Of a stretch of DNA of 64,000 nt, positions 24,004 to 38,738 are shown piece after piece. Both the position numbers and the translations under genes were made by a program. A model generated the notes under the pieces. That model had not been told where the DNA came from, ran no database searches, and was given only the letters and a program-made list of their open reading frames with translations. The DNA comes from Desulfoferula mesophila. GTDB lineage: Bacteria; Desulfobacterota; Desulfarculia; Desulfarculales; Desulfarculaceae. Location: positions 1,379,501-1,443,500 of the forward strand of contig NZ_AP028679.1 of NCBI RefSeq assembly GCF_037076455.1, given 5' to 3'. Numbering within the stretch: the stretch's first letter is position 1; every line of letters starts with the position of its first letter.

Positions 24004-24189
24004 TTCTAGGCTTTCCTCATGGCTTAGTAATATCTACAACGGTAACCAAATAATCATATTTTACTGAAAAGCGAAACAAAATTGCAATATTGCCCAACGC
24101 TGAACTATTTCTAACTTATTATGCCAAGTGCCGTTCCAACCGAGGGTGCGGACCCAGAGTTTCACGTATTCGACGACTGAATTTGGTTT

Positions 24190-24925
24190 GGGCCTAGACT
24201 AGTTGAGAGGTTTCTCCCTGAGCATCTTTAGCAAGATAGCATAGAGGTCTTGCCCTCGGTAATTGAACCTGAGCTCGGACTCCTTCAGATGCAGGTAAAA
24301 GGTGGAAGAAGGGAGCCCGTTGAACTTCATGAGCCTAGCCTTGGCAAAGGACCAAAAGGACTCGATGCCATTTATATGGTTTCGTCCCTTGGCGAACTGG
24401 TCTTGGCCATGCTGGACGCGATAATGTTTTTTGTATCCCAGGTCCACCAATCCGTTGTAGCCTCTCCAACCGTCGGAGTGAATTACGCTCTTGGGATCTA
24501 CTTTTCCTCTGATGATGGCTTGTAGAGTGGCTTTGGCGCAATCGGGCACGATCTCAGTGTAGACTCGGCCACCCCTCTGAAGGATGCCGAAGACCGGAGT
24601 TTTGCCATAAGCGCCGCGCCCCCTTTTTCCCTTTACCCGCCTTGCTCCGAAGTAGGATTCATCGACCTCGATCTCCCCCTTGAAAGGCGACTCCTGCTCA
24701 CACAGCTCGGCAATGCGCTGGCGGATCTTAAAGAGGTAAAGGTTGATTGTGTTCCGGTTTAATCGCGTCAACGATGCGATTTTGTTGGCCTCCAGGTCCA
24801 GTGCGAAGAGCCTGACTAGATCCCTAAATTTGGCCTCCGAAATCCTTGCACGGCGAACATACTTGTTTTTCATGCCCATACAGCTAGTTAGAGTAATTCA
24901 TCATACTCCCAACTAGTCAAGGGCC
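24190..24925 (-). mobile_element. IS1595-family insertion sequence, copy 1
   Basis: The ends are GGGCCTAGACTAGTTG (24190) and, on the opposite strand, GGCCCTTGACTAGTTG (ending 24925). The element is flanked by an 8-bp target duplication TTTGGTTT (24182-24189 and 24926-24933), the size usual for this family. It is nearly identical to the copy at 35619-36354. Confidence 0.92.
24199..24873 (-). CDS. IS1595-family transposase
   Basis: The 224-residue DDE-type transposase (ISXO2-like) has GEIEVDESYFGARR (first Asp), SVIHSDGWRGYNGL (second Asp) and HINGIESFWSFAKARL (third acidic region). The N-terminal HTH is LNRNTINLYLFKIRQRIAEL. ATG 24873 is shared with the second copy. It differs from that copy by only a few residues (for example L versus R after NTIN, and H versus R in the GRNHIN stretch). 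Confidence 0.92.
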   Translation of the reverse strand: MKNKYVRRARISEAKFRDLVRLFALDLEANKIASLTRLNRNTINLYLFKIRQRIAELCEQESPFKGEIEVDESYFGARRVKGKRGRGAYGKTPVFGILQRGGRVYTEIVPDCAKATLQAIIRGKVDPKSVIHSDGWRGYNGLVDLGYKKHYRVQHGQDQFAKGRNHINGIESFWSFAKARLMKFNGLPSSTFYLHLKESELRFNYRGQDLYAILLKMLREKPLN

Positions 24926-25254
24926 TTTGGTTTTTATTATCCATAGAAGTCGAATAGGCTGCAAAAGCATATGCGGTGGGGCAATTCGAGGTGTGCTAAG
25001 TACCTTGCACTGCTCTGATGGGCGACACGATGTTGGATAAGAAATCCTAGGTTAACTTCTATCAAATCCGCCGGACTTAAAATTTAAGCCGATACCCATC
25101 ACTAGGCCAAATTGGATTAAATTCATACGAGGATTTGTTGGTTCAAATCTGGGGTCACGATATATGCCAATCAATGATGGATTTTTATTTTTGCATCAGG
25201 GTCTCTAACACCAAACACTTGGCCGTCCCCATGTTTTCGGCAAGCACTTACCAC
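24926..25254. other. gene-poor AT-richer stretch
   Basis: About 330 bp between the IS1595 copy and the stop of the radical SAM gene. It starts with the 8-bp target duplication. I see no convincing ORF, RNA gene or terminator hairpin. Confidence 0.5.
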
Positions 25255-26757: not shown

Positions 26758-26852
26758 TACGCACCATCCTTTGAAATTACAGCCCTAAACGCCAACATTT
26801 CAATTCATACGCTGCTTATTAACCTCAAACTCACGCTTGGCATCGACATCAT

Positions 26853-27062
26853 CTAGCGCTTCCTACCCACCAATACCAGCAGCAACCCGGCCACTGCCGC
26901 AGCCGCCCCACCCACCAGGTAAGCCATGGTGTTGTTGGTGTAGCGCCCGGTGAAAGTCTTGGAGGCTGAATCCACCAAGGAATCGGTGGCGGTAAAGCCG
27001 TAGACGAGCAAAATCACTCCCACCACCAAAAGTACGATGCCCGATATTTTCCAAAGATTCAC
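26853..27062 (-). CDS. DUF3185-family small membrane protein
   Basis: The 69-residue protein starts at GTG 27062 behind GGAGG. It has two membrane helices (ISGIVLLVVGVILLVYGF and YLVGGAAAAVAGLLLVLVG) separated by a polar loop with SKTFTGRYTNNTM, the DUF3185 pattern. The function is unknown. It sits among DUF3309, BON and CsbD genes, a set typical of envelope stress responses. Confidence 0.8.
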   Translation of the reverse strand: MNLWKISGIVLLVVGVILLVYGFTATDSLVDSASKTFTGRYTNNTMAYLVGGAAAAVAGLLLVLVGRKR

Positions 27063-27120
27063 GTGGTCGCCTCCGCCTAAAAGTATGGATCATGTCGACT
27101 TGCGGTGACTTCGCTGAATA

Positions 27121-27276
27121 TCAAATACGTCCCAATAAAAAGAGCACTATAACGATAACAAGGATCACTCCCAGGATGGAGCTTGGATAATATCCCCACC
27201 CCCTGCTGTGCTGCCAGGAAGGGAACGCACCTATAATGAAAAGGATCAAAACAATTACCAGTATTGTTACTAACAT
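27121..27276 (-). CDS. DUF3309-family small membrane protein
   Basis: This 51-residue ORF begins MLVTILVIVLILFIIGAFPSW and continues with HSRGWGYYPS, then ILGVILVIVIVLFLLGRI. The two short helices around a W-S-x-x-W-G-Y-x-P turn are the DUF3309 signature. It is below common ORF length cut-offs and is easily missed. It lies 58 bp before the DUF3185 start, on the same strand. Confidence 0.85.
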   Translation of the reverse strand: MLVTILVIVLILFIIGAFPSWQHSRGWGYYPSSILGVILVIVIVLFLLGRI

Positions 27277-27362
27277 CCCCGCCTCTCTTTCTTGCACATG
27301 CTGGAAGTTTGAAAGCCGTTAACCATCCCGGAGATAGCTACAGACCCTCCTGATTCACCAAG

Positions 27363-27677
27363 CTATTTTACGAGCAGATCATTTTTCACCGACACGACAC
27401 CCTCGACGCTGCGGGCAACTTCCCCCGCCCTTCTGACGCTCTCCGCGGAATTAACAAAACCGCTTAACTGAACCTCTCCCTTGTAAGACTCGACGCTGAT
27501 TTGCATCGTTTTAAGCATAGGATCGTTAAAGATTGCGGCCTTTACCTTGGTTGTGATGGCGGAGTTGTCGACATACTGCCCGGTGCTTTCGCTGGTTTGC
27601 GTGGCAGCGCACCCCAGGAATATTGTCATCAGCCCGATAACAACCAGTAAGCCCAAACTCTTTTGCAGCTTTCGCAT
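27363..27677 (-). CDS. BON-domain lipoprotein
   Basis: The 104-residue protein has a lipoprotein signal (lipobox IFLGC) and one BON domain (AITTKVKAAIFNDPMLKTMQISVESYKGEVQLSGFV, then RRAGEVARSVEGVVSVKNDLLV). BON domains bind membrane lipids or peptidoglycan-associated surfaces and are common in osmotic-stress proteins such as OsmY. It is probably tethered in the periplasm and protects the envelope. Confidence 0.88.
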   Translation of the reverse strand: MRKLQKSLGLLVVIGLMTIFLGCAATQTSESTGQYVDNSAITTKVKAAIFNDPMLKTMQISVESYKGEVQLSGFVNSAESVRRAGEVARSVEGVVSVKNDLLVK

Positions 27678-27807
27678 GACTTATTCCTTTATCGTTAAGT
27701 TGACCCAGTCAGTTGCTCAAGTGCATTTTCCGGCCACCCGATATATTGCTTTATGCAGCTCCTCGGCGCAGATGACGGGACAAGCTTGCTTGCAGGCCTA
27801 GGGCTGG

Positions 27808-28110
27808 TTAGCCGCTGGGGTTGCTGCCTGCCGGCATCCTGGTGAAGCGCTGGGCCACCCAGCCGAACTGGTCATTGGGGGCCTGCATGTAGAGCCATCC
27901 AGGTGACTGACCGTAAATAGTCAGGTTTAAGCCTTGAGACACAGTGGCCGTCACTGGTGTAGTTGCGGCCGGGGCCCGAGCGAACGTTTAGCAGGGGAGA
28001 GGTCACCACCGCCATGCCCTGCAGAGTGGCAAGGCCAGGGTGCTGGCCAGAACCAAGCAGCCCAACCGGCCTGCCCAGCGCGATATTACGGTTCGTTTGC
28101 TATGCAACAT
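27808..28110 (-). pseudogene. frameshifted SH3b-domain exported protein
   Basis: From ATG 28110 the frame gives a signal-like start (MLHSKRTVISRWAGRLGC, then LVLASTLALPLC) but stops after 35 residues. Moving one frame gives VTSPLLNVRSGPGRNY, and another shift gives VSQGLNLTIYGQSPGWLYMQ and FGWVAQRFT, ending at TAA 27808. Together these make one bacterial SH3 (SH3_3) domain. Two frameshifts separate the pieces, so the gene is inactive unless the sequence has errors. Confidence 0.65.
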
Positions 28111-28181
28111 ATCTCAATCCCTTTCCGGGATTGCTCTTAACGTGGATGCAGGTTCTAGGTTCCCGACGCGCGACCGTCGCC

Positions 28182-28361
28182 CTATTTCCCCGCAACCTTC
28201 TCGATCTCGCCGACCTTTTTCTGTATTTTGCCGGCCCTTTTTTCGTCTTTACCTGCGCCTTCCAATTCAGAATTCATGCTGGCTTTACCGGCGAGTTCCT
28301 TGACCTTGCCCTTTACTTTGTGAAGCGTGCCTTCCGCTTGATTCTTAGTGCTGGATTTCAT
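28182..28361 (-). CDS. CsbD-family stress protein
   Basis: The protein starts MKSSTKNQAEGTLHKVKGKV at ATG 28361, with GGGAG seven bases before it. It has 59 residues, is Lys/Glu/Gly-rich, and carries the CsbD motifs GxxHKVKGKVKELAGKA and AGKIQKKVGEIEKV. CsbD proteins are induced by general stress in many bacteria; their mechanism is unknown. An in-frame ATG four codons upstream is possible but has a weaker ribosome site. Confidence 0.88.
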   Translation of the reverse strand: MKSSTKNQAEGTLHKVKGKVKELAGKASMNSELEGAGKDEKRAGKIQKKVGEIEKVAGK

Positions 28362-28429
28362 GAGTTCTCCCATCCTTGTTAGTTTGAGAAGGGCCGCAAA
28401 GGACTTTCGAACCGTCGAACTATTTGTCC

Positions 28430-28823
28430 GACGGAGAGCCGCTTCTCAGTGGTCGGTAGGCTTGCCTTGGCGAGGTTGGCCGAAGCTTGGCCGCGAGCGG
28501 TTAGAGGGAGCAAGCGGTGCCCGCTGTGTCTTTATTAAATTATCCCCTGAAATCCTGGAAACGCACAGATTAGATACCGTTTAAATAATGACTATATAAA
28601 ATCACCATTATCAAAGCTCGGATAAGCGGGCACTCAAGCTGACCTCGCATCCTAATATACTAATTTTACGACGTATATTGTGCCTATAGGTAGCAACCGT
28701 GTCACCTGATACATTCAACACCTCGGCGATCTCCTTGGTCGCCAAGCCCTCTCGAATCATCATGACCGCCTGGATCCCTCCAGGCGTGAAACTGAATTTA
28801 GGAGAGTTCAGCCGCTGGGTAAA
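28430..28823. repeat. direct repeat copy 2 (matches 18040-18435)
   Basis: The sequence follows copy 1 closely, including the 3' flank of the PAS-LuxR gene, and then breaks off abruptly after 28823. Recombination between the copies would delete about 10 kb of cargo. Confidence 0.75.
28611..28823 (-). pseudogene. truncated LuxR-type HTH (C-terminal fragment of a PAS-LuxR gene)
   Basis: The minus strand still reads as the HTH end of the 18214-19752 protein. It keeps EIAEVLNVSGDTVATYRHN, then RRKISILG and a conserved final LSEL and stop. The N-terminal sensor part and start are missing. Several helix residues are altered (TPGGIQAV in place of TPREIQVA). It is a dead fragment carried with the duplicated region. 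Confidence 0.75.
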
Positions 28824-28851
28824 GGTGCCATGCGTATAGGCTCAACAACAG

Positions 28852-29043
28852 TTACTTCCCCACGCGGATACTGGATAGCGAACCGATAACTCCAAAAACG
28901 CTCAAAAGCCACAAAACGACGACAATCACCACGACGGCATTCAAGATCGTCTTGATGGAGCCCGCCATCGGGATGAATCGGTTGATGAGCCAGAGAACAA
29001 CACCGACTGCGATCAGGACAAGCAAAACTTGAAGTAAAGGCAT
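28852..29043 (-). CDS. Thivi_2564-type small membrane protein
   Basis: The 63-residue protein has two hydrophobic helices (LLQVLLVLIAVGVVLWLINRFIP and ILNAVVVIVVVLWLLSVFGVIG) with the INRFIPM turn seen in the Thivi_2564 group. The function is unknown. Members commonly neighbour CsbD and BON genes, as here. The ATG at 29043 has GGAGGG ten or so bases upstream. Confidence 0.8.
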   Translation of the reverse strand: MPLLQVLLVLIAVGVVLWLINRFIPMAGSIKTILNAVVVIVVVLWLLSVFGVIGSLSSIRVGK

Positions 29044-29295
29044 GATCTAACCCTCCATGATTTGTTGATGAAAGCAGGCAAGGGTGCTCCGCTCTTGCTT
29101 ATGCGCTGCTCTGAGCGCAGCTGATTTTCGGTTCAAGCTCTCCCTTATTTCTGCCGACTACTAATACCATTATGCTTGAAAGCTGCCGCTCAGTTCGTCG
29201 GTGCAAACCGGACATTGCGATGGGCTCGGGAGTATCGAATGCAAGGGAGGTGCGGCAAGCTGCGGGTCGGGCTGCAAAAATGGGGTCCAAGTAGT
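29044..29295. other. stretch without recognised gene
   Basis: About 250 bp between the Thivi_2564-type gene and the IS110 left end. Only short open frames without family features are present. Confidence 0.4.
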
Positions 29296-30518
29296 GCTAA
29301 GATGAGATGAGTGTGGTCATCCCCCCGCTTTGGGACAATGGTCTTGGGTACTTAGAGACCATTAAAGGGAGGGTTGACCATGATTTATGTTGGCATGGAC
29401 ATTCACAAGAAGACCACGACTTTTTGCGCTTTGGATCAGGAGGGCAAAGTCATCCACCGGGGTACGGTTCCCAGCGGTGAAACTGGATGGCTTGATGCAA
29501 TCCATCGTTGGCCCAAAGACGAAATAGCGGTTGCTCTTGAAACTGGCTCCATGACCTGGTGGGTGGTGGATGTGTTGCGTGAGGCTGGAATTGAGCCCAT
29601 CGTGGTCGACGCCCGTCAATTCAAAATGATCGCCGACAGTAAGAAGAAGAGCGACCGCCACGATGCCCGGGCCCTTGCCGATGGGCTGCGAGGTGGCTTG
29701 GCTGAGCGAATCGCGGTCAATGTGCCTAGAGAAAAAGCACGTCGGGCCCGCTCTTTGATGCAGACTCGGCAGCAAATTCTCAAGCAGCGCAATATGACGG
29801 TAAACGCAGTAAAGGCCATGCTGCGTTCGGTTGGGGTGGAGATGAAAAAGGCCCAATGGCCCAAGGATAGCCACTGGGAAAAAGTCCTTGATAATCCGGC
29901 GGTGCCCATTTGGATGAAGCCATTCCTGATCACCCAACGCAGCATCTGGGACCACTTGGAGCAGCAAAGGCAGGAGTTTGATGCCTTGGTCCATGAGGAG
30001 TTGAGCTGTTGGCCTGAGGCGCAACTGCTTCTGGAGATGCCCGGTTTCGGCCCCATCGTCACCCTGGGCATTCTCAGCGGCATAGATGACATAAAGCGTT
30101 TCAGGCGCTCAAATCAGCTGGCCAGTTATGCCGGTCTGATCCCCTCGTCCCGTGACAGCGGAGCGGTGCAACGCCGGGGAGGGATAACCCGCCAGGGACG
30201 AAGTCTGATGCGCTATTTCGCGGTGCAGGCCGCCTGGGCGGCCATGCGCAGTAAGAATCTCACGATCCCTTTGCGTAAATGGTCCCGCAGGCTGATTGTG
30301 AAGCGGGGAAAGAAGGTGGCTGCAGTTGCCTTGGCCAGAAGACTTCTAGTCCTGGCCCACAAGCTATTGACCACCGGAGAAGTTTATAACTCCAAATACC
30401 CAGTCGTGGCCTGAGCAAAAAGGAGATTGTTGGCCTAAAAAAAGCGAACGCGCTATTCGAGGATTGGCGTCGAACCTGAAATACTTGCTTGTGGCCGGGA
30501 CCACGTTGCTAAGATGAG
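29296..30518 (+). mobile_element. IS110-family insertion sequence (approximate limits)
   Basis: The 11-mer GCTAAGATGAG occurs at 29296-29306 and 30508-30518, bracketing the transposase gene. IS110 elements lack long inverted repeats and often end in such short direct repeats, so the true ends are probably within or next to these 11-mers. About 75-85 bp of non-coding DNA precede the gene and about 90-105 bp follow it. One of these may encode the guide (bridge) RNA. Confidence 0.65.
29380..30414 (+). CDS. IS110-family transposase (DEDD recombinase)
   Basis: The 344-residue protein has the DEDD/RuvC-like N-terminal catalytic domain (YVGMDIHKKTT, ALETGSMTWW, KSDRHDARALADGL) and a C-terminal transposase_20 domain (LLLEMPGFGPIVTLGILSGI, ASYAGLIPSSRDSG, GGITRQGRSLMRYFAVQAAW). 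ATG 29380 has GGGAGGG just upstream. Related enzymes use a bridge RNA to pair target and donor. The protein appears complete. Confidence 0.93.
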   Translation: MIYVGMDIHKKTTTFCALDQEGKVIHRGTVPSGETGWLDAIHRWPKDEIAVALETGSMTWWVVDVLREAGIEPIVVDARQFKMIADSKKKSDRHDARALADGLRGGLAERIAVNVPREKARRARSLMQTRQQILKQRNMTVNAVKAMLRSVGVEMKKAQWPKDSHWEKVLDNPAVPIWMKPFLITQRSIWDHLEQQRQEFDALVHEELSCWPEAQLLLEMPGFGPIVTLGILSGIDDIKRFRRSNQLASYAGLIPSSRDSGAVQRRGGITRQGRSLMRYFAVQAAWAAMRSKNLTIPLRKWSRRLIVKRGKKVAAVALARRLLVLAHKLLTTGEVYNSKYPVVA

Positions 30519-30636
30519 GGGCGCCAATTCTCGATCCACATCCATGCGCCGGGTCTTAACTGAGCGCGAAGAGAAGCTTGAAAGCGCGATCGCCCTTAAA
30601 CTGGCTTTGTCCGGAAAAAAGGAAAAGGCCTATTGA
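30514..30636 (+). other. short ORF fragment after IS110
   Basis: An open frame from ATG 30514 encodes 40 residues, including RRVLTEREEKLESAIALKL. It starts inside the IS110 end repeat, so it may be the C-terminal end of a gene broken by the insertion. I do not recognise it. Beyond it, to 30765, I see nothing. Confidence 0.25.
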
Positions 30637-30765
30637 TAAATTTTGCCCTTGACCAGAATGACCACACTCAGAGAAGTAAGCTAAACTACGAGATTGCGTT
30701 CGCAACAGTCGGCTTGCATATCCTCTATTAATTTTGGGCCCACCGATATTGCTGCAGAACCCGCT

Positions 30766-31308
30766 TTAACCAACCACCCCCAGCTTGGCCTGGCGCTCCT
30801 CGATAAGCTTGAGGGCCTCCTCGATGCTGTTATTGACGTTGACTTCGATGTCGGCGCCGATCACGCCCGTGTGCTTGGCCAGCAGCTCCAGGGCCTTCAC
30901 CTTGACCGGGCTGCCCATGCTGATCTCTACGGTCTCAACCTCTCCGACCTTGCTGGTCTTGACCTTGCCCACCCCGGCCTTGCCCTTATCGCCCAGCTCC
31001 TCGGAGGTGAGCAGGGTAACGCCCTCCGGGCCCCAGGAGCAGACATCAGTCAGGCGGGCGAAGCCCACCGCAGCCAACTCGGCCACCACCTGGTCGGCGG
31101 TTACGCCGGTGCGCTCGCATCGCTTGGCCTTGGCCTTTTGAATTGCTTTCAGAACGTATGTTTTCGTAACTAGCTCTCGCCCATAGGCCGGACTTTTGAG
31201 CCCAGCCCGCAGGGCAGCCTGGCTGGCGTTGAGATCCACCATATACTCATCGACGAAACGCTCCTGCTTGGGGGTGAGATCATACAAATTAAATACCTCC
31301 AAGGTCAT
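30766..31308 (-). CDS. phage-type terminase small subunit
   Basis: The 180-residue protein matches the small terminase pattern: LTPKQERFVDEYMVDLNASQAALRAGL (N-terminal HTH), then VLKAIQKAKAKR and a C-terminal oligomerisation part with VKVKALELLAKHTGVIG. It would recognise element or helper-phage DNA for packaging. No large terminase subunit or capsid gene is present, as in satellites. ATG 31308 lies in the loop of a perfect inverted repeat. A TTG at 31287 with GGAGG eight bases upstream is a plausible real start. Confidence 0.85.
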   Translation of the reverse strand: MTLEVFNLYDLTPKQERFVDEYMVDLNASQAALRAGLKSPAYGRELVTKTYVLKAIQKAKAKRCERTGVTADQVVAELAAVGFARLTDVCSWGPEGVTLLTSEELGDKGKAGVGKVKTSKVGEVETVEISMGSPVKVKALELLAKHTGVIGADIEVNVNNSIEEALKLIEERQAKLGVVG

Positions 31309-31328
31309 TATCTTTGACCTTGGAGGTA
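31294..31328. promoter_or_regulatory. perfect 14-bp inverted repeat at the terminase start
   Basis: TACCTCCAAGGTCA (31294-31307) and TGACCTTGGAGGTA (31315-31328) are perfect complements with a 7-bp spacer. One arm contains GGAGG (read on the minus strand within the gene start). As DNA it is an operator-like palindrome; as RNA it would fold and hide the ribosome site. A further TGGAGGTA lies at 31346-31353. The pair at 34635-34675 uses the same TACCTCC/GGAGGTA core. Confidence 0.65.
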
Positions 31329-31356
31329 ATGTCGCCTTACATATATGGAGGTATGG

Positions 31357-31548
31357 TTAAAGCCTGCATAATCTACCGGCGCAATCAAAGGAGGTGCCCT
31401 CGCGAGGGGGTTCCTCCTCTATTATGCGCTCCTCGGTAGTCCAGCGATGGCCACAGGTTATGCACTCCCGGCGCCGGCGCACCCGGTCAGAGTAGCCCTC
31501 GGTGGCCACTACCCGGTCCTGGTTGCTTTTGCACTTTTGGCAGTCCAT
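31357..31548 (-). CDS. small zinc-ribbon protein (NrdR-like N-terminal motif)
   Basis: The 63-residue protein has CQKCKS and CITCGH, two CxxC pairs separated by the basic RRRRE stretch, closely resembling the zinc ribbon of NrdR (C-x2-C ... RVRRRREC-x2-CGHRW-TTEER). The ATP-cone is absent. It may be a DNA-binding regulator of the element. GGAG precedes the ATG by about ten bases. Confidence 0.65.
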   Translation of the reverse strand: MDCQKCKSNQDRVVATEGYSDRVRRRRECITCGHRWTTEERIIEEEPPREGTSFDCAGRLCRL

Positions 31549-31571
31549 TTAACTGCGCTCCTATCTCTGCC

Positions 31572-31937
31572 TTAATTGGCCGAGATCGTCGATTCTGGAG
31601 GATAAATCGGCCCGTGAGTCCCGAAGAAAAACTCTTTTGGTGGCCGGCCGCCGATGCCTTTCCGCCGGGGGTTGGTGCCCATTCTGAATTTGTGCAAGCA
31701 ACAATCATCAGAGTGGAGCATGCGGCCGGTGCATCGCGCTGCCTCGGCCGCGGAGCCGGCGCAATCTATGCAAAATTTTTGAATAGTCTTGAGCCGGCTG
31801 ATTTTTACCCCATCGGGGAGGTGGTTGAGGCGGGAACCATGTAACTGGCAGTTGATGGACTGACATTCTTTAACAAGGGCACGGCCGCCACCCATACAGA
31901 AAAGACAATGTGTTCTAATCGCTTTTTGCGGTGTCAT
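31572..31937 (-). CDS. Cys-rich phage/satellite protein (putative zinc-binding)
   Basis: ATG 31937 has GGAG nine bases upstream. The 121 residues contain several metal-ligand pairs: CLFC, ECQSINC, CIDC, C-x8-DDCC, then the tail HKFRMGTNPRRKG, a pattern known from small prophage proteins of sulfate-reducing bacteria. The function is unknown. A decayed copy of its 3' end is seen at 14239-14297. Confidence 0.65.
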   Translation of the reverse strand: MTPQKAIRTHCLFCMGGGRALVKECQSINCQLHGSRLNHLPDGVKISRLKTIQKFCIDCAGSAAEAARCTGRMLHSDDCCLHKFRMGTNPRRKGIGGRPPKEFFFGTHGPIYPPESTISAN

Positions 31938-31966
31938 ACTCAGATCTCCTTTCCTATGGTGCTCGA

Positions 31967-32080
31967 TCAATACCGCGTTGGTGTAATGGCCAGCAGGTTA
32001 AGCTCTGGCAGGTGACGCCGGGCCTCCAGGGTCCAGGCCATGAGGGCCGCCTGGATGGCATATTCCTTTTGCTGGGGCAT
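31967..32080 (-). CDS. possible 37-residue small protein
   Basis: ATG 32080 follows GGAGG by five bases and opens a frame of 37 codons (MPQQKEYAIQAALMAWTLEA, then RRHLPELN). It lies between the candidate origin and the Cys-rich gene, on the same strand, with a strong ribosome site. No family is recognised, so it is supported only by its start signals and position. Confidence 0.4.
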   Translation of the reverse strand: MPQQKEYAIQAALMAWTLEARRHLPELNLLAITPTRY

Positions 32081-32095
32081 CAAAACCTCCTAAAT

Positions 32096-32332
32096 AAACC
32101 CATAGCAGGCCCTGCTACGGGTTTGCGCGAGTTGTTCTTGAGTGATCTCAGCCAGTTGGGGGGTAAACCAGTACCTGTAGCAGCCCCCCCTATAAATAAA
32201 AGGGTCCAGGGGCCCCCAGGGGGGGAAATATATATTTTTATATACTTATATATATAGTTACTAATTAACATATAAGTAGCTTGATTTCCTTGGGAATAAC
32301 CCGTAGCAAACCAGTAGCAAACACGTTGCTAC
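32096..32332. other. candidate replication origin: GTAGCA repeats plus AT-rich tract
   Basis: A 29-bp near-perfect palindrome (32096-32124, one mismatch in 14-bp arms) carries TGCTAC at 32113-32118. GTAGCA follows at 32177-32182, 32303-32308 and 32314-32319, with TGCTAC at 32327-32332. The last two form CAGTAGCAA-ACACG-TTGCTACTG. Between them, 32226-32276 is almost pure A/T. Repeats plus an easily melted tract directly after the primase-polymerase gene fit an origin used by that protein. A promoter/operator region is the alternative. Confidence 0.5.
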
Positions 32333-32334
32333 TG

Positions 32335-34425
32335 CTATTGGTTCTTTGCCTGGCAGTAGATGTCGCAGCCAGGGCCCCGAGTCGGGGTGTATTTCATAAT
32401 CACCAGCACCCCGTTGCTCACCATGGTCTTGAGCAGGGAGTCCCTGGTCTGCATGCTCTGATGCAGAAAACGGCCCACCTCGGCCGCCGTCAAACCCGGC
32501 CTGTCCACAGTTGACTTCTTCTTGATCAGGGCCAGCACCCTCTTTTCCTGAGCCTCCCATTCGTTGTCCGAGATCTGATCCTGGGTCCGGTCCACCAGCC
32601 CGGCCACCAGGTTGTCCACCAGCCCGGCCGCCCAGCGTAGGGACTCCATGCCCACCTCCTTCTCGATTACCCCGGCGCCGTACAGGCTCACCGCATGAAC
32701 CAGGGCCAGCTTGGCCGCATGCTCCACGGCCCGGCCGTAAATCGATCCCACGGCCTCCTTGCGATGCTCGTTGCGCAGTTCAAAGTAGGTGTCCCCCCAC
32801 CGAGCCATCTCATCCTTGGCCTCGCGGGACATATCCACCTTGAAGGGCACCGGGATCCGGGCCAGATTGCCGCCGGTATGATCCACCGGGATGTTCCAGA
32901 CATGGTCCAGGGCCTCCACCAGGGCCTCGGGCACCGAGGTGTCCACGGTCTCCTTGGGCCGGGGCGCAGGGCGATCCGAGGAAAACATCAGGAGGCGGGC
33001 CAGGAAGCCGTCAGCCACCTCTGAGGAGGTCATCCCCCCCCAGAAGGTCTCTGGGGTCCCGGTTCCGTAAAGGCCCAGCAGGTGCCAGTGTAGGACCACT
33101 GGGTCCTTGGTCGCGTAGCTCTTGGTGTAATGGTGGCCGGCCCCGCTGAACATCTCCATCAAGGTCTTGGGGATCTCGGCGCCGGGGGAGTGGGGCTTTT
33201 TGATCGCCTGGTAGAGCAGCCCCACCTCATCGATGGTCAGCATGGTGCGCTGCTGCCCCTCCTTGGAAAGCCAGTGCATGATCGCCGAGGCCGAGGTGGG
33301 ATCGTTGGGGCCCATCACCCGATGGCACTCGCCCCCCATCAGCAGGGTGGGCAGGGCCTGGTGGGCGGCGTTCTTGCCGCAGCCAGAGTAGCCCAGGCAG
33401 ACGCAGTACATGTTGGTGCGCAGCCCGGTCTCGGTCATCACCCGCTGCCCGGCGATGGAACCCAGGACGGTGATGGCCGCGGCCAGGTTGAACGGGGCGT
33501 AACTCACCGCCGTGGAGCGCTCGATGTAGGCCATGATCTCACCCAGCAGGCCGCCGGGCTCGAGCAGCTCCGCGGGGAACTCCTCGGCCGGGGCGCAGGG
33601 CTCGGGCACCGCCGCCGTCAGGCCGGGCAGGTTCTCCACCGGGGCCCGCTCGGGGTGGTTGCGCCGGTCCAGCCTGTAGACCGACCTGACGGTAGTCTCC
33701 ACCTCCCGGGCCCCCATGGGGGGTTGGCATATCTTGCGGTTCCAGCCCTCGGCCAGGAGCAGGGCCTCATCGATGTCGAGCCCCTTGGCGATCCACTTGC
33801 CGGCCATCTCGGCCAGGGCATGGTTGCGGCCGCCCTTGGGGACCGAGGCCCGGGACTCGGTGCTGACCTGGATCCCGGTGAGATCCACGCCGGCCAGGTT
33901 GCCGCGGCGCGAACTGTCAGGGAGGGCGGGCTGACAGTTATCCGGAGGCGCCCATTCGGTCAGGCCGTCCCAGCCATCGAGGCCCGGGATGAACTTCCAC
34001 TCGTAGGCCACGCCGCTGGGGTGGATCGATGGGGGGCAGACCACATAGCCGCCTTCTGCCCGGATGTCGATCTGGTCGCGCCAGCCCACTGCGTTCTTGA
34101 TCTCCACCCCGGCCGGGATCTTGTAGAAGGCATGAAAGGCGCTGGGCTTGCCCGTCTTGGAGTAGACCGAGGTTTTGGGAGCGTTTTTGCTGAACCATTC
34201 CATCCCCTCTGGCCCGTCTACGTCCATGGCCCAGATGCCAGAGATGGACCCACAGACGATGGCCAGGTTGGCGTCAGGCCATCGCTCGAACCAGGCCTCG
34301 ACTTCCTCCTCGGTGGCCCGGCGGTGTTGGAACTCCTCCCACCTGACCAGGGGCTTCTTGCCCTTGGGCTCGATGGGGATCACCGAGATCCCACGGTCCA
34401 GCAGTTCGAGCGCGGTGTTAAGCAC
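32335..34425 (-). CDS. primase-polymerase / DUF3987 helicase-like replication protein
   Basis: The 696-residue protein begins with a bifunctional primase-polymerase (Prim-Pol/AEP) domain (residues about 1-180: LDRGISVIPIEPKGKKPLVRW, IVCGSISGIWAMDVDG, QIDIRAEGGYVVCPPSIHPSG). A DUF3987 P-loop part follows (Walker A GYSGCGKNAA, Walker B MLTIDEVGLL, then GLYGTGTPETFW). It would initiate and drive replication of the element, like the alpha protein of P4-type satellites. The start is GTG 34425, overlapping the AlpA-like gene by eight bases. Confidence 0.85.
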   Translation of the reverse strand: MLNTALELLDRGISVIPIEPKGKKPLVRWEEFQHRRATEEEVEAWFERWPDANLAIVCGSISGIWAMDVDGPEGMEWFSKNAPKTSVYSKTGKPSAFHAFYKIPAGVEIKNAVGWRDQIDIRAEGGYVVCPPSIHPSGVAYEWKFIPGLDGWDGLTEWAPPDNCQPALPDSSRRGNLAGVDLTGIQVSTESRASVPKGGRNHALAEMAGKWIAKGLDIDEALLLAEGWNRKICQPPMGAREVETTVRSVYRLDRRNHPERAPVENLPGLTAAVPEPCAPAEEFPAELLEPGGLLGEIMAYIERSTAVSYAPFNLAAAITVLGSIAGQRVMTETGLRTNMYCVCLGYSGCGKNAAHQALPTLLMGGECHRVMGPNDPTSASAIMHWLSKEGQQRTMLTIDEVGLLYQAIKKPHSPGAEIPKTLMEMFSGAGHHYTKSYATKDPVVLHWHLLGLYGTGTPETFWGGMTSSEVADGFLARLLMFSSDRPAPRPKETVDTSVPEALVEALDHVWNIPVDHTGGNLARIPVPFKVDMSREAKDEMARWGDTYFELRNEHRKEAVGSIYGRAVEHAAKLALVHAVSLYGAGVIEKEVGMESLRWAAGLVDNLVAGLVDRTQDQISDNEWEAQEKRVLALIKKKSTVDRPGLTAAEVGRFLHQSMQTRDSLLKTMVSNGVLVIMKYTPTRGPGCDIYCQAKNQ

Positions 34426-34630
34426 GCCGCCCCGCCTGGCCGGTATCGCTGGTGGAGGTGCGCAACCGCTCTACGATCCAGGCCTCCAGATCAGCTATCC
34501 GGTACCTGACAGATCCTCCGAGCTTAGCGTGACGGGGTCCATTACCTCGCAGGCGAAGTCCCTCAAGCGTCCTGTGCGATAGCGAGAGATAGGCGGCAGC
34601 TTGTTTGGTTGTGAGAAGCGAATCCTGCAT
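34418..34630 (-). CDS. AlpA/excisionase-like helix-turn-helix protein
   Basis: The 70-residue protein has the MerR-like HTH_17 fold of AlpA and excisionases (LLTTKQAAAYLSLSHRTLEGLRLRGNGPRHAKLGGSVRYRIADLEAW, in outline). It probably regulates the element's early promoter or bends DNA for excision. Its ribosome site lies in a 10-bp inverted repeat (34635-34675). It overlaps the primase start, so the two form one operon. Confidence 0.85.
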   Translation of the reverse strand: MQDSLLTTKQAAAYLSLSHRTLEGLRLRGNGPRHAKLGGSVRYRIADLEAWIVERLRTSTSDTGQAGRRA

Positions 34631-34634
34631 AAGT

Positions 34635-34675
34635 TACCTCCAGAAAACCTGCGTCGGTTGTAGTATCTGGAGGTA
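34635..34675. promoter_or_regulatory. inverted repeat covering the AlpA-like ribosome site
   Basis: TACCTCCAGA (minus-strand reading, 34666-34675) and TCTGGAGGTA (34635-34644) are perfect 10-bp complements 21 bp apart. The second arm includes the GGAGG six bases before the ATG. In RNA the hairpin would mask the ribosome site; in DNA it is a split operator. The TACCTCC core is shared with 31294-31328. Confidence 0.6.
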
Positions 34676-34725
34676 TTTTTGGTTCGGTAGGCTGTAAAAG
34701 TCACATAATTAGGGCGTGGGAAATA

Positions 34726-35445
34726 TTACGGTTTTTTTTCTTTATTTTCCACGTAAGTTAACGCTATAAAATCACTCAAGGTTTTGTCTGGTTCATGTTG
34801 GTACCCCAAACCCAAAAGGCACTCTTTTATAAAAAGAAATCCACGTCCGGTACACTCTATCCATTCTTTGTCTGCCCCAGCTCTGTATTTCTCGCCAGTA
34901 GCCCCCTCATAAAAACGTAAGAGCCTTGAAACTGCGTCCTTTTTTTGAATGCGATCTGTGGTCTCCCCGGTTGGTCGCCCCTGCTGGGCCTTAGGTATTT
35001 GGTCAAGCACAGTTTCGGCACCATCTACTACATAACCGATTAATTTTTGCATGTTGTATAAAAACATTGAGAGACCGTCAGCACCGACGAAACCGCGTAT
35101 ATCATTTTTCTCCTGAACGGCACGCTCCACTTCGATCCACCCATCAGCGTGCAGGTTGTCCATAGCAAGAGAAAAAGCTCGGCCAGTTTTAATCAAGCCA
35201 TCAAGCCCCTCTTTAAAAGACTTTGGCCCCATGCGATTTTGTAACCACATGCTCAAAAAAATGTGATCTAGGAGGAGTTCTTTTAATTGATTTTTTTGGT
35301 GGTCCTTAAGGGCAAGGTTTATCACGTTTTGTTTCGCAATGATCTCATTAACTCCCGCCTGTATCTTTGCCAACTCCTCGTGAGGCATGCCGGCGGCTAC
35401 AGGACTTATCCCTACTAATTTTTGACCCTTGATTTTTATTTCCAT
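34726..35445 (-). CDS. hypothetical protein of the element
   Basis: The 239-residue protein is mostly predicted alpha-helix with no signal peptide or membrane segment. Visible stretches include LKDHQKNQLKELLLDHIFLSMWLQNRMGPKSFKEGL and DGAETVLDQIPKAQQGRPTGETTDRI (in outline). I do not recognise a family. Its A/T-richer codon use differs from the genes outside the element. It sits between the IS1595 copy and the AlpA-like gene. Confidence 0.6.
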   Translation of the reverse strand: MEIKIKGQKLVGISPVAAGMPHEELAKIQAGVNEIIAKQNVINLALKDHQKNQLKELLLDHIFLSMWLQNRMGPKSFKEGLDGLIKTGRAFSLAMDNLHADGWIEVERAVQEKNDIRGFVGADGLSMFLYNMQKLIGYVVDGAETVLDQIPKAQQGRPTGETTDRIQKKDAVSRLLRFYEGATGEKYRAGADKEWIECTGRGFLFIKECLLGLGYQHEPDKTLSDFIALTYVENKEKKP

Positions 35446-35618
35446 TTTAACTGCCTGATAGTGTTGCAGTGAATGTCAACATGCGGCACCGAAGTATAAG
35501 CATCATATTGATTGATAATTTTCATAACACGGGCAGCGGTGCCAAAAGCCCTCGTTCAATCAGTATTCTAAAATGACTAGACACACTTAGCGCTAGGGCT
35601 GATATGGTTTAAAAATTA

Positions 35619-36354
35619 GGGCCTAGACTAGTTGAGAGGTTTCTCCCTGAGCATCTTTAGCAAGATAGCATAGAGGTCTTGCCCTCGGTAATTGAACCTG
35701 AGCTCGGACTCCTTCAGATGCAGGTAAAAGGTGGAAGAAGGAAGCCCGTTGAACTTCATGAGCCTAGCCTTGGCAAAGGACCAAAAGGACTCGATGCCGT
35801 TTATACGGTTTCGTCCCTTGGCGAACTGGTCTTGGCCATGCTGGACGCGATAATGCTTTTTGTAACCCAGGTCCACCAGGCCGTTGTAGCCTCTCCAACC
35901 GTCGGAGTGAATCACGCTCTTGGAATCCACTTTTCCTCTGATGATGGCTTGTAGAGTGGCTTTGGCGCAATCGGGCACGATCTCAGTGTAGACTCGGCCA
36001 CCCCTCTGAAGGATGCCGAAGACCGGAGTTTTGCCATAAGCGCCGCGCCCCCTTTTTCCTTTTACCCGCCTTGCTCCGAAGTAGGATTCATCGACCTCGA
36101 TCTCTCCCTTGAAAGGCGACTCCTGCTCACACAACTCGGCAATGCGCTGGCGAATCTTAAAAAGGTAACGGTTGATTGTGTTCCGGTTTAATCGCGTCAA
36201 CGAGGCGATTTTGTTGGCCTCCAGGTCCAGTGCGAAGAGCCTCACTAGATCCCTAAATTTGGCCTCCGAAATCCTTGCACGGCGAACATACTTGTTTTTC
36301 ATGCCTATACAGCTAGTTAGAGTACTTCATCATACTCCCAACTAGTCAAGGGCC
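35619..36354 (-). mobile_element. IS1595-family insertion sequence, copy 2
   Basis: The ends match copy 1 (GGGCCTAGACTAGTTG at 35619; complement of the right end GGCCCTTGACTAGTTG). AAAATTA flanks both sides (35612-35618 and 36355-36361), a 7-bp target duplication. Length is 736 bp, as in copy 1. Confidence 0.9.
35628..36302 (-). CDS. IS1595-family transposase
   Basis: The 224-residue protein is almost identical to the one at 24199-24873 and keeps EVDESYFG, HSDGWRGY and GIESFWSFAK. Both copies appear intact. Two copies in the same orientation 11.4 kb apart give a further route for deletion of the cargo between them. Confidence 0.92.
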   Translation of the reverse strand: MKNKYVRRARISEAKFRDLVRLFALDLEANKIASLTRLNRNTINRYLFKIRQRIAELCEQESPFKGEIEVDESYFGARRVKGKRGRGAYGKTPVFGILQRGGRVYTEIVPDCAKATLQAIIRGKVDSKSVIHSDGWRGYNGLVDLGYKKHYRVQHGQDQFAKGRNRINGIESFWSFAKARLMKFNGLPSSTFYLHLKESELRFNYRGQDLYAILLKMLREKPLN

Positions 36355-36539
36355 AAAATTATTAGATGATATCGTAGTCAGGTTCCAAAAGTCACGGCAG
36401 GATGTTAAGGATTTAGTTGAACTGGCTGACTAAAGAGAAGGCACCAAAAGAACTGGGAAAAGCCTCTGGCCATTCATGGTTGCCCTGCCGAACAGTGAAA
36501 GTAGGTCCGTACTACTGCCAATAGCTCAAAAAGTTATCC
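36355..36539. other. short non-coding stretch before the integrase stop
   Basis: After the IS1595 duplication there is a 25-codon open tail (LLDDIVVRFQKSRQDVKDL and on to a stop near 36433) with no start. It may be the end of a gene broken by the IS. Nothing else is visible. Confidence 0.3.
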
Positions 36540-37751
36540 TCAGGTGCGCCGGTCATCCCTCGCGTCTATACTCATCACCTTTTGCTTAGTCGGTGCCCTC
36601 ATGGCGCCATCAATTAGGCTGGCTACCTGGTCGGCTGCTTGTTTTACCGGGTCCTGGGCCAAGTGAGCGTAACGCTGAGTGGTGGCCGCCTGGGTATGGC
36701 CCAGCAGGGCCCCAATCACCGGCAGGGACAGGCCGGCAGCGGCCCCTACGCTGGCGAAGGAGTGCCTCAAATCGTGGAGCCGCACATCCTCCAGCCCCGC
36801 CCGCTCCCTGATCCGGCGCCAGGGCTGTTGCAAGTTAACTAGCGGCCTCATGGGCCGTGCGCCCGGGCATACAAATGGATTGCCGGCCTGGCGGGGCGTG
36901 CTCTCAAGTAGGTCCAGGGCGACTTGCCCCAAAGGAACAAATCGCTGTCCGGTTTTGCTGTCCAGCAGGTTAAGGCACCCACGATCCCAATCAACGTCAT
37001 CCCACCGGAGAGTTAGGACTTCAGAGAGCCGGCAGCCGGTAAATATCAACAGCCGCACGGCGGTGACCACGGAGGGCAGCCCCGAGTCCTCACGCTCAAT
37101 CTCGACCAGCACTTTACCCAGCCGAGCCCATTCGTCCTTGGACAAATAGCGCTGCCGCTTTTTCTCTTTGTACTTCTGGATGTGCCTGGCGGGGTTGCTG
37201 CCATCAGGCCGTAGACCCCACGCCTCGGCCAGGTTGAACATTTTGCGCACCACCTCTAGGACGCGGTTGGCCTGGTACGGCTTTTCTCGCAAGCTGTGAT
37301 GCAGTTTCGCGATCTGCTCGCGGGTAACCTCATCGACGTTATAGCGGCCCAAGGCGGGCAGGATGTACTGATCAACGAGGAAACGATCCTTGCGGATGCT
37401 CTCCGCCTTTTTTTTAACCTCGCTATGCTCGGCCATGTATCGAGAGGCCAACTCTGAGAACGCAGGAGCGCTCCTGCCGGCACTTTTAGCCTCGGCGGGG
37501 TCCTGGCCCCGGGCCACCTCTCCAAGCCGCTCCTTGGCCAATTTACGGGCCATGTCGACGGTTAATTTGCCGTAGGCCCCCAGGGTCAACTTGCGGGTGC
37601 GGCCTTGAGAGTTGCGGTACTGGCAGATGAAAACCTTGCCTCCAGAAGAGCGCACCCTCAACCCGAAGCCCGGGAGTGCCTCATCCCAGTAAACCCTCTC
37701 CTTGTCCTGTGGAATCACGCTATCGACAAAACGTTTAGTCAACTTCGGCAT
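36540..37751 (-). CDS. tyrosine recombinase (P4-type integrase)
   Basis: The 403-residue protein has the DUF4102 arm-binding N-terminus (LTKRFVDSVIPQDKERVYWDEALPGFGLRVR, in outline) and a phage_integrase catalytic domain: Arg in FTGCRLSEVL, HDLRHSFAS (His, Arg), GHTQAATTQRYAH (His and the nucleophile Tyr). It ends about 30 residues after the Tyr. It sits 154 bp from attR with three arm-like repeats between, the usual int-att layout, and should integrate and excise the 5461-37928 element. Confidence 0.95.
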   Translation of the reverse strand: MPKLTKRFVDSVIPQDKERVYWDEALPGFGLRVRSSGGKVFICQYRNSQGRTRKLTLGAYGKLTVDMARKLAKERLGEVARGQDPAEAKSAGRSAPAFSELASRYMAEHSEVKKKAESIRKDRFLVDQYILPALGRYNVDEVTREQIAKLHHSLREKPYQANRVLEVVRKMFNLAEAWGLRPDGSNPARHIQKYKEKKRQRYLSKDEWARLGKVLVEIEREDSGLPSVVTAVRLLIFTGCRLSEVLTLRWDDVDWDRGCLNLLDSKTGQRFVPLGQVALDLLESTPRQAGNPFVCPGARPMRPLVNLQQPWRRIRERAGLEDVRLHDLRHSFASVGAAAGLSLPVIGALLGHTQAATTQRYAHLAQDPVKQAADQVASLIDGAMRAPTKQKVMSIDARDDRRT

Positions 37752-37777
37752 GGTGGTTATCCTTTCCAGGTCCTGCC

Positions 37778-37806
37778 GGGAAGCCTATGGGAAGCAGGCG
37801 GGAAGC
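37778..37806 (+). repeat. right integrase arm-site repeats (GGGAAGC x3, 11-bp period)
   Basis: GGGAAGC occurs at 37778-37784, 37789-37795 and 37800-37806, exactly 11 bp apart, between the integrase start and the attR core. The spacing puts the sites on one face of the helix. The same motif and period occur inside attL. The sites may also allow integrase to repress its own promoter. Confidence 0.75.
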
Positions 37807-37905
37807 AATTGCCGGGTAGGATAGCGTAGGGCGAGGTATCATAGCAAGCATTAACTATGCTAATTAACGCAGAGTAACGTTTTAGGGAGTAGCCGAGAGG
37901 CCCTT

Positions 37906-37928
37906 AACCTGGTGGTGCTCAACCACCA
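37906..37928. repeat. attR core (direct repeat copy 2)
   Basis: This 23-bp sequence is identical to 5461-5483. To its right the original end of the ccsA-like frame resumes (QMGMRP, stop) and overlaps the resB-like ATG at 37944. Confidence 0.88.
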
Positions 37929-37943
37929 GATGGGGATGAGGCC

Positions 37944-38738
37944 ATGAAGTCCTTGTCCAGCCTGCGTCTGGCCGTGGCGCTCATGGCCTCTTTGGTGCTG
38001 TGGGCCGCCTGGGGAGTCCAGATGGCCGCCAGCCCTTCCCTGGCCCCCCTGCTGCGCGCCTTGGCAGAGGGGCATCTGTTGCTGCACCCTTCCCAGTGGG
38101 GGCAGGCCCCTGGGTTGGGTTTGTTGTGGGTCGCGGGCCTGTTGGGCCTCAGCGCCCTGTTGGCCCTCAACCTGCTCTGTTGCAGCCTGAGCAAGCTGGT
38201 GCGCAATTGGTCTTGGCGCAACGTCTTGCTCCTGGGCCTGAACTTGGCGGTGCTGCTGGTCATGCTGGCCCACGGCGCCACCTTGGTGGTGGGCTACCAG
38301 CGCCAGCATCAGCGCCTGCTGCCCGGCCAAAACCTGAGCCTGCCGGACGGCGCGGTACTCAAATTGACCATGGCTCACCTGGAGCCCGAGGCCCTGGCCG
38401 CCTGTCTGCGCCAGGCCTCCGCCAAACAAACCAGCCGCCGTCCGCGCTTTCCCCGGGGGCCGGGCTGGGCCGAGGTGTCTCTGACCCGCGACGGCCTTGA
38501 CCTGGGGCAGGGCCGGGTGGCTTTTATGCAGCCCTGGCAGGCCGACGGGCTGCGCGTCAACCTGGTGGGCTACTTCTGCCTCCCCGGCTCCGCGCATACC
38601 CTGGGCGCGGTGCTCAACGTGACCCGCCGTCCCCTGGCCGTGCCCTTTTTCATCGCCTACGCCGCGGCTATGGGTTGTTGGCTGCTGCTGCTCCTGTGGG
38701 ACCTGCGCCGCAAGCGGGGAGGTCCGGCCCAGGACTAG
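37944..38738 (+). CDS. ResB-like membrane protein, copy 1
   Basis: The 264-residue protein has three N-terminal membrane helices, a periplasmic beta-rich part (LLPGQNLSLPDGAVLKLTM) and a final helix before RRKRGG. It is a shortened relative of ResB/Ccs1, about half the usual length, and a paralog of 41053-41886 (both share LLGH/AHGA and MLPGQxLxLP segments). ResB partners CcsA in haem transfer to apocytochromes. In the uninterrupted locus its ATG overlaps the ccsA-like stop (ATGA). The element now separates them, so its transcription must come from within the element's right end. Confidence 0.78.
   Translation: MKSLSSLRLAVALMASLVLWAAWGVQMAASPSLAPLLRALAEGHLLLHPSQWGQAPGLGLLWVAGLLGLSALLALNLLCCSLSKLVRNWSWRNVLLLGLNLAVLLVMLAHGATLVVGYQRQHQRLLPGQNLSLPDGAVLKLTMAHLEPEALAACLRQASAKQTSRRPRFPRGPGWAEVSLTRDGLDLGQGRVAFMQPWQADGLRVNLVGYFCLPGSAHTLGAVLNVTRRPLAVPFFIAYAAAMGCWLLLLLWDLRRKRGGPAQD

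Follow-up and report, generated by a model that had tools for sequence, protein, structure and literature searches.

Predicted hairpins over the ribosome-binding sites of alpA and terS in a satellite-like element of Desulfoferula mesophila

We found that two genes of a satellite-like element of Desulfoferula mesophila, encoding an AlpA-like regulator and a terminase small subunit (TerS), each have their Shine-Dalgarno (SD) sequence within one arm of a perfect inverted repeat, and that both repeats are predicted to form stable hairpins in the mRNA. It appears fairly probable that, in this element, hairpins of this kind cover the SD and thereby reduce translation of AlpA and TerS; the mechanism is already known, and this would be a new instance of it. 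The features concerned (Table 1) lie in the window, i.e., the whole analysed stretch of 64,000 nucleotides of contig NZ_AP028679.1 (positions 1,379,501 to 1,443,500).

Table 1. Features of the element and of the two leaders (window coordinates).
Feature	Position	Strand	Remarks
Dyad T over terS ribosome site	31294..31328	-	arms 31294-31307 and 31315-31328, 7-nt loop
Dyad A over alpA ribosome site	34635..34675	-	arms 34635-34644 and 34666-34675, 21-nt gap
terS SD (GGAGG), inside 3' arm of dyad T	31296..31300	-	8 nt before TTG 31287
alpA SD (GGAGG), inside 3' arm of dyad A	34637..34641	-	6 nt before ATG 34630
Third TGGAGGTA copy near terS	31346..31353	+	TACCTCCA in terS-strand transcript; 52 bp from first arm
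Favoured terS start codon TTG	31285..31287	-	in frame with ATG 31306-31308
Terminase small subunit gene terS (PF03592)	30766..31308, probably 30766-31287	-	
AlpA-like regulator	34418..34630	-	HTH_17 PF12728; PHROG 66 excisionase and transcriptional regulator
Prim-Pol / PriCT_1 / DUF3987 replication protein	32335..34425	-	ORF overlaps alpA end
orf132, cysteine-rich	31572..31970	-	sub-threshold Pfam match only (DUF2321)
Small NrdR-type zinc-ribbon protein	31357..31548	-	PF22811; directly upstream of terS
orf239, no family	34726..35445	-	integrase side of alpA
Tyrosine integrase of element	36540..37751	-	
IS between int and orf239	35628-36302		
Sigma70-like promoter match GCGACA-17-GATAAT	31307..31335	-	weak, 9 of 12

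Dyad A, in the alpA leader, reads TACCTCCAGA-21-TCTGGAGGTA (34635-34675; 10/10 complementary) and is thus the 10-bp inverted repeat with GGAGG that the initial annotation had reported for the AlpA-like gene. Dyad T, in the terS leader, reads TACCTCCAAGGTCA-7-TGACCTTGGAGGTA (31294-31328); its 14-bp repeat (14/14 complementary) and the core shared with dyad A likewise held up. Common to both dyads are the 8-mers TACCTCCA/TGGAGGTA. The window contains six copies of TGGAGGTA, five in the terS and alpA leaders and one at 51546; the fifth copy of the two leaders, at 31346-31353, had been missed initially. The arrangement TACCTCCA-N5-35-TGGAGGTA was detected twice in the window and never in 100 shuffles, and TACCTCCA-N6-35-TGGAGGTA twice in the whole 4.48-Mb genome, at dyads T and A (backwards control, 1). 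The bare core is not special, since its 7-mer-only version gave 3 occurrences in the genome vs. 4 in the control. Perfect arms of 10 are no great rarity (the window has 7 vs. 1-4 per shuffle, five shuffles), and arms of at least 12 are rarer (3 vs. 0-1 per shuffle, five shuffles). The unusual feature of the dyads is their position over the SD: among 150 strong-SD starts, taken from 504 ORFs of at least 100 aa in 575 kb (alpA being too short for inclusion), terS is the only one with an SD that falls within a perfect arm of at least 7.

The proposal that the terS gene starts inside dyad T fared less well, as it probably relies on a wrong start codon. Read from ATG 31308, TerS has 10 residues before LTxKQ and only AAGG upstream; read from TTG 31287, it has 3 residues before LTxKQ and begins 8 nt after the GGAGG of the 3' arm. 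Among 20 terS relatives, three (L034, L046, and L103) have an SD-supported start 2-5 residues before LTxKQ, and in two (L035 and L043) an ATG lacking an SD stands 2 residues ahead of this motif. Four near-identical relatives (L047-L050) start 11 residues and one (L042) 26 residues before LTxKQ, and ten are without any accepted start. From these comparisons, TTG 31287 is the probable terS start, favoured over ATG 31308. If it is taken, terS and alpA have the same geometry, the 3' arm containing the SD at 6-8 nt from the start codon. No dyad over the SD was found among the 20 terS relatives, their folds being judged by eye.

The element can be described as a PICI/P4/CP4-57-like satellite. Its int, alpA, primase-rep, and terS genes form one cluster, as in a Gram-negative PICI or a P4-like satellite, and no virion structural gene other than terS was found among the eight proteins searched (30766-37751). 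The search for att-site repeats gave no exact common word of at least 12 between 37701-38000 and 22001-31300, and no tRNA genes were detected in the window. The position of orf239 matches that of orf287 in an element of the same genus (G007) and of orf193 in G198.

For dyad T the predicted RNA hairpin has a free energy of -23.5 kcal/mol (z -8.35) and for dyad A of -17.5 kcal/mol (z -5.17), and none of the 200 shuffles was as stable. Judged by sequence and predicted folds, the SD of both genes falls in one strand of a stable helix with the upstream leader. We propose that both mRNA leaders, of alpA and of terS, form hairpins in which the SD makes up the 3' strand; because of this, the 30S subunit would be unable to bind as long as the hairpin stands. 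Transcripts arising by leakage or read-through would then yield little of the activator AlpA, of the product of the replication gene behind alpA, and of the packaging protein TerS. Release might come from transcripts starting inside the dyad, and so lacking the 5' strand, as in T4 gene e, or from an opening factor. The hairpins would be a plausible lock against early or accidental expression, of a type already described in other phages; this purpose, like the loss of translation itself, we infer.

Two options had been put forward initially, namely folding of the mRNAs over their ribosome sites and binding of a regulator to both dyads as operators. The former is the better supported, by the SD in the 3' arm at both genes, the strong predicted folds, and SD-covering dyads with different arms at other alpA genes; the latter is weakened. 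We surveyed AlpA-family leaders, retaining 80 from 132 matched frames after dropping those with no SD, with too little upstream DNA, or duplicated, and found an SD-covering dyad (score of at least 8) in 11 of them, against a shuffle expectation of 0.87. Control leaders carried one in 5/371 cases without terS and 6/372 with it (expectation 3.8), and AlpA-family leaders differ from controls in Fisher's test (6e-6). Among 60 leaders collected once the hypothesis had been formed, seven have the dyad (expectation 0.82, p 3e-4). Grouped by closeness to the AlpA profile, dyad leaders number 6/18, 1/13, 1/30, and 3/19. Predicted SD accessibility is lower in AlpA-family leaders than in controls (mean 0.33 vs. 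0.40, p 0.003). Perfect arms of at least 8 covering the SD from upstream occur in 4/80 leaders vs. 0.2 expected (controls, 4/372 vs. 1.25). L215 enters this count, yet stays below score 8 in the survey; L083 and L102, with 8-9 at first look, do not score in the final survey, which used a different start or SD for them. For dyads situated wholly upstream, the excess is about equal in both sets (16 vs. 5.65 in the AlpA family; 55 vs. 22.4 in controls).

The pairing arms of AlpA leaders mostly differ between elements (e.g., L179, L259, L074, and L078), whereas the alpA arms of the closest element, G007, are identical to ours at 20/20 bases. Because of this identity, window and G007 arms show no compensatory changes. 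Loop and flank of the window and G007 alpA dyads match no better than shuffled letters (10/21 and 20/47, respectively), and the AlpA proteins are 45-47% identical. The further claim that alpA and terS are switched together gained no direct support: the G007 element carries a dyad at alpA, but the part of it that we read showed no recognisable terS, and the only terS match in G007 is a partial one on another contig.

SD hiding is by no means universal. A scoring dyad is missing from 69/80 AlpA-family leaders, from all seven follow-up leaders of two families (L270 would reach 9 with a 45-nt gap allowed), and from all 18 weaker AlpA-like genes, fetched last under a looser profile cut and scored in the same way (controls, 0/42), which rules out that all alpA leaders hide their SD. 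The dyad is also absent at L104, L106, and L108, whose AlpAs are 55-62% identical. An exact 10-base-arm scan of genome contigs returned 15 stretches, with AlpA behind the dyad at L134 only; L134 carries the same dyad as G007 C187, and another match, L122, lies inside a coding region and reads as chance. The exact 9-base-arm scan of viral contigs gave 33 stretches, and by eye no AlpA was recognised behind those with a start. Looser SD-dyad scans returned 91 stretches in viral contigs and matches in 10/395 genomes (control, 1), three of the latter (window, L356, and L365) with an ORF of at least 40 aa opened at ATG; among the 35 distinct ORFs of this kind from the looser scans, the AlpA profile is matched by just two, those of the window alpA and of L356. 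No primase relatives were confirmed by peptide patterns in genome contigs, nor AlpA relatives in viral contigs.

Possibly, though we doubt it, the 5' arm doubles as part of a promoter. RNAs made from the element's promoter would then begin within the dyad and be translated, and read-through RNAs with both arms would stay silent; T4 gene e offers a precedent (PMC3014915). The best terS promoter match has the 5' arm of dyad T in its spacer and its second hexamer starting in the loop. In 11/16 dyad leaders, the start predicted from the best match lies within the 5' arm (4 leaders) or past it, in the loop or the 3' arm (7 leaders); in the other five (L103, L078, L215, and the non-alpA L199 and L200) it falls upstream. 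Promoter scores, which use sigma70 weights, are weak, and among 67 hairpin-less leaders 52% likewise have a predicted start between -45 and -16, so promoter placement does not discriminate. With a background that looks so similar, a promoter in the dyad is no more than a possible general rule.

It is rather unlikely that TGGAGGTA half-sites in the promoters of alpA and terS are bound by a regulator (AlpA or some other protein) that switches the two genes, although the exact 8-mer, its five copies in two leaders, and the genome-wide restriction to two such dyads would fit. In the PICIs of E. coli, AlpA stimulates its own expression (PMC6092414; PMC11773190). The left arm of dyad T sits in the spacer of the terS promoter-like match, and the alpA arms are conserved in G007 while the loops are not. 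Of 125 control SDs of the GGAGG type, 29 have a T in front and 9 have TA behind (both together expected in ~1.7%, if independent), and the only TGGAGGTA among them is terS itself. L356, of another family, has ACCTCCAG-14-CTGGAGGT at an integrase-linked AlpA-like gene, with half-sites spaced as in L103. Yet, start-to-start distances of 25 (L103 and L356), 28 (terS), 31 (G007), and 34 bp (alpA) lack the constancy of an operator pair for one dimeric regulator; the half-sites do not keep one helix face. Nor do the arms follow the AlpA recognition helix, whose DNA-reading residues we presumed from the fold: that of G007 is clearly diverged beside identical arms, and L104 and L109 have similar helices without these arms, which weakens AlpA as their reader. 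Moreover, every one of these 3' half-sites overlies the SD, and the 8-mer need not be a site, because TGGAGGTA is the SD of L184 alpA, which has no scoring dyad.

Arm conservation beyond what the SD needs, together with the third TGGAGGTA copy upstream of terS, is more than a plain hairpin needs and makes a sequence-specific binder possible. We would likewise advance only tentatively that the conserved TACCTCCAG...CTGGAGGTA of int-orfX-alpA satellites in these bacteria might be both a DNA- or RNA-partner site and an SD-hiding hairpin, a device copied to terS to give one two-layer lock for activator and packaging gene. The site could be a promoter or regulator site in DNA, or the target of an RNA partner.

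Intrinsic terminators or attenuators are very improbable: dyad T is listed as terminator-like with the tail TTTAATTTGT, but this tail is poor and lies in a translation start, dyad A has no T run, and the 7 terminator-like sites compare with 6.5 in shuffles. Chance repeats are hardly credible, for although ten-base arms can arise fortuitously in a stretch like the window and GGAGG is dictated by the SD, the 14-base arm, the exact SD placement at two genes of one element, and the alpA dyad conserved in G007 stand against them. As for known RNA families, the single, sub-threshold Rfam match (36787-36901) lies away from the dyads.

The SD-hiding hairpins that we favour resemble those in the T4 gene e, soc, 49, and I-TevI leaders, in which, according to the available part of PMC3014915, the SD and/or start is sequestered in an RNA helix, and late gene e transcripts starting without the 5' part are translated. 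There the genes and the phage are different, and our case is built from sequence and predicted folds. In the accessible portions of PMC6092414 and PMC11773190, AlpA of the Gram-negative PICIs EcCICFT073 and EcCIMP1, which like our element also have a primase gene, acts as an activator that is induced by a helper and stimulates its own expression. Forced AlpA expression led to uncontrolled replication and harm to cells (PMC6092414, same portions). Since AlpA wakes the PICIs studied, a hairpin over its ribosome site carries weight: if real, it would give AlpA positive feedback a translational threshold, a layer unmentioned, like the leader hairpin, in those portions (PMC6092414; PMC11773190), which deal with transcriptional control. 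In the open-licence literature we found no paper on a hairpin over the alpA ribosome site. In CP4-57 of E. coli K-12 (alpA - yfjI, DUF3987) and satellite phage P4 (vis, alpha), a DUF3987 gene comes after alpA, an order shared with the window; unlike the window, K-12 alpA has no strong SD dyad (one 100-nt fold) and the P4 vis leader only a weak long-range fold. In elements of the IS10/IS50 type, the transposase SD is hidden in read-through RNA, the hairpin arising only when transcription enters from outside, which makes them an analogy to the window hairpins rather than a relative.

The minus strand of the window carries a satellite-like element in which the ribosome sites of the AlpA-like regulator gene (alpA) and the terminase small subunit gene (terS) each lie within an inverted repeat (dyads A and T, see table). 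Both repeats were confirmed at the positions reported in the initial annotation; both are perfect and both contain TACCTCCA/TGGAGGTA. In the whole 4.48-Mb genome (G000, one contig) from which the window derives, this 8-mer pair, spaced 6–35 nt, occurs twice, as dyads T and A (one pair for the backwards control), while the pair of 7-mer cores was counted three times, not above the control (4). A fifth copy of the shared 8-mer (31346-31353) falls in the gap that separates terS from the zinc-ribbon gene, and a sixth window copy lies at 51546. Perfect arms of at least 10 bp were found seven times in the window vs. one to four times in each of five window shuffles, and those of at least 12 bp three times vs. 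none or once.

Genes and dyads of the satellite-like element
Feature	Position	Strand	Remark
Tyrosine integrase (int)	36540-37751	-	
IS	35628-36302	-	named by eye
orf239		-	between IS and alpA
AlpA-like regulator (alpA)	34418-34630	-	
Dyad A	34635-34675		10-bp arms, 21-nt gap
Prim-Pol/DUF3987 replication protein	32335-34425	-	
orf132		-	between replication protein and zinc ribbon
NrdR-type zinc ribbon, small		-	between orf132 and terS
Terminase_2 small subunit (terS)	30766-31308	-	
Dyad T	31294-31328		14-bp arms, 7-nt gap

The IS transposase gene, inserted between int and orf239, is near-identical by eye to another at 24199-24879. A decayed second copy is present at 2.64 Mb in the same genome (L105, 15200-16100); it comprises an orf132 relative (66%) followed by a C-terminal terS remnant (89% over 35 aa) and adjoins DNA resembling the window stretch downstream of the transposase-like gene 29374-30414.

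Folded in isolation, dyads T and A are predicted to reach -23.5 kcal/mol (z -8.35) and -17.5 kcal/mol (z -5.17), respectively. The same helices are predicted in the 95-nt terS and 91-nt alpA leaders (z -4.74 and -3.09), whose fold stability was reached by 0/200 shuffles.

To place the terS start, its distance to the LTxKQ motif was compared among 20 relatives. Three have a start supported by a Shine-Dalgarno (SD) sequence 2–5 residues before the motif (L034, L046 and L103, the latter also using TTG). In two more (L035, L043), an ATG stands two residues ahead of the motif and lacks an SD. The start lies 11 residues ahead in four near-identical relatives (L047-L050) and 26 residues ahead in one (L042); for the remaining 10 the script accepted no start. 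In the window, ATG 31308 lies 10 and TTG 31287 three residues before the motif, and the GGAGG in the 3' arm of dyad T precedes TTG 31287 by 8 nt. We favour TTG 31287, which would give both leaders an identical layout: 5' arm, loop and SD-bearing 3' arm, followed by the start, 8 nt on in terS and 6 nt on in alpA.

SD-covering inverted repeats were scored in AlpA-family leaders that had an SD and sufficient sequence ahead of it; 132 matching frames yielded 80 distinct ones, and 372 further leaders at these loci served as controls. A score of at least 8 was obtained for 11/80 alpA leaders vs. 0.87 expected from shuffles. The controls gave 6/372 (3.8 expected); these six include the window terS, whose removal leaves 5/371 (Fisher 6e-6 vs. 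alpA). The idea arose from first-look loci holding 20 of the 80 leaders and 4 of the 11 scoring ones; among the 60 fetched later, seven score (0.82 expected, p 3e-4). Perfect arms alone give SD-covering dyads in 4/80 alpA leaders (0.2 expected) and 4/372 controls (1.25 expected), whereas perfect dyads lying only upstream show a similar fold excess in both sets. The arms vary between elements, the outcome that pairing-based selection would give. By closeness to the AlpA profile, 6/18, 1/13, 1/30 and 3/19 leaders score. Weaker AlpA-like genes admitted by a looser profile cut gave 0/18 (controls 0/42), and leaders from two family searches 0/7, one of which (L270) scores only when a 45-nt gap is permitted; thus, SD-covering dyads are a minority feature, chiefly of close AlpAs. 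Pooling the 80 and 18 leaders, with the family-search seven left out, gives 11/98 vs. 5/413 in controls (p 1.5e-5).

In a congeneric genome (G007), an element ordered int-orf287-alpA-primase-like gene (the last named by eye) has its alpA SD covered by TACCTCCAGA-18-TCTGGAGGTA. Its AlpA is 45–47% identical to that of the window and 20/20 arm bases match, as opposed to 10/21 in the loop and 20/47 in the upstream flank, neither of which exceeds the shuffled-letter means (10.5 and 23.9). No terS was recognised in the stretch inspected there; a partial match (query residues 77–177) is found on a different contig. A second element of G000 (L103) bears a decayed dyad, TACCTCCAG-14-CTGGGAGTA. Across 395 genomes of the phylum, ACCTCCAG-N8-30-CTGGAGGT-N3-9-ATG matched once in each of 10 (control, one match). 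Three matches lead into an ORF of 40 aa or more: the window alpA, L365, whose ORF has no AlpA likeness, and L356 (G198), where an integrase-like gene (by eye) and orf193 precede an AlpA-like gene, an order matching the window and G007 elements. The distant AlpA-like leaders of L103 (near 7565-7600) and L356 (near 1500) have dyad position and spacing in common, and their loops share the letters ATCAAATTTT at the same offset.

Other inverted repeats were noted. A perfect 15-bp one at 42831-42868, TTGGTAGCGTTATAT-8-ATATAACGCTACCAA, which resembles a ModE box, separates the end of a gene that we take from its sequence to be ModE-like (42885-43274) from the next minus-strand ORFs. At two AlpA loci (L199, + strand ~1940-2010; L200, - strand ~1936-2006; G347), related sigma-factor-like genes (by eye) have their SD inside a conserved dyad, GGGACACCTCCA-9-TGGAGGT(G/T)TC. 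Dyads of TACCTCCAG or ACCTCCAG type cover the SD of genes at L129, L133, L306 and L349 that resemble AbiEi antitoxin genes. In eight viral contigs (L284, L285, L288, L291, L292, L293, L317, L339), a ACCTCCAG...CTGGAGGT dyad overlies the SD of a zinc-finger primase-like gene (by eye), while ten others (L142, L143, L146, L148, L149, L150, L152, L153, L159, L161) have in common the nearly identical dyad TACCTCCAGC(G/A)TGTAAAGAGTTCTGGAGGTA.

The initial annotation had proposed either mRNA folds hiding the ribosome sites or operators for one regulator. We favour the former, and SD-hiding hairpins at alpA and terS are rather probable; the readings considered here overlap in part and do not compete for a single total. 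An attractive refinement of the hairpin reading, albeit a doubtful one, places the promoter within the dyad. The left arm of dyad T falls in the spacer of a promoter-like match ahead of terS and the second hexamer starts in the loop, so that native transcripts would begin at the 3' arm, in the manner of T4 gene e (PMC3014915). The 16 dyad leaders are indistinguishable from background in this respect. A regulator binding half-sites at both leaders is only possible, and on balance unlikely; half-site distances of 25, 28, 31 and 34 bp are unsuited to one rigid dimer. AlpA itself as the reader is argued against by G007, which keeps the arms despite a diverged AlpA recognition helix, and by AlpAs with similar helices at loci without the arms (L104, L109). 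Still, arm conservation exceeds the needs of the SD and its complement, and TGGAGGTA occurs in 1/125 GGAGG-type control SDs, namely that of terS; it is likewise the SD of one alpA whose leader has no scoring dyad (L184). The arm conservation, the third copy near terS (31346-31353) and L356 leave room for a sequence-specific partner.

We treat joint switching of alpA and terS as a hypothesis. The element carrying them has the same alpA-DUF3987 gene order as CP4-57 of E. coli K-12.
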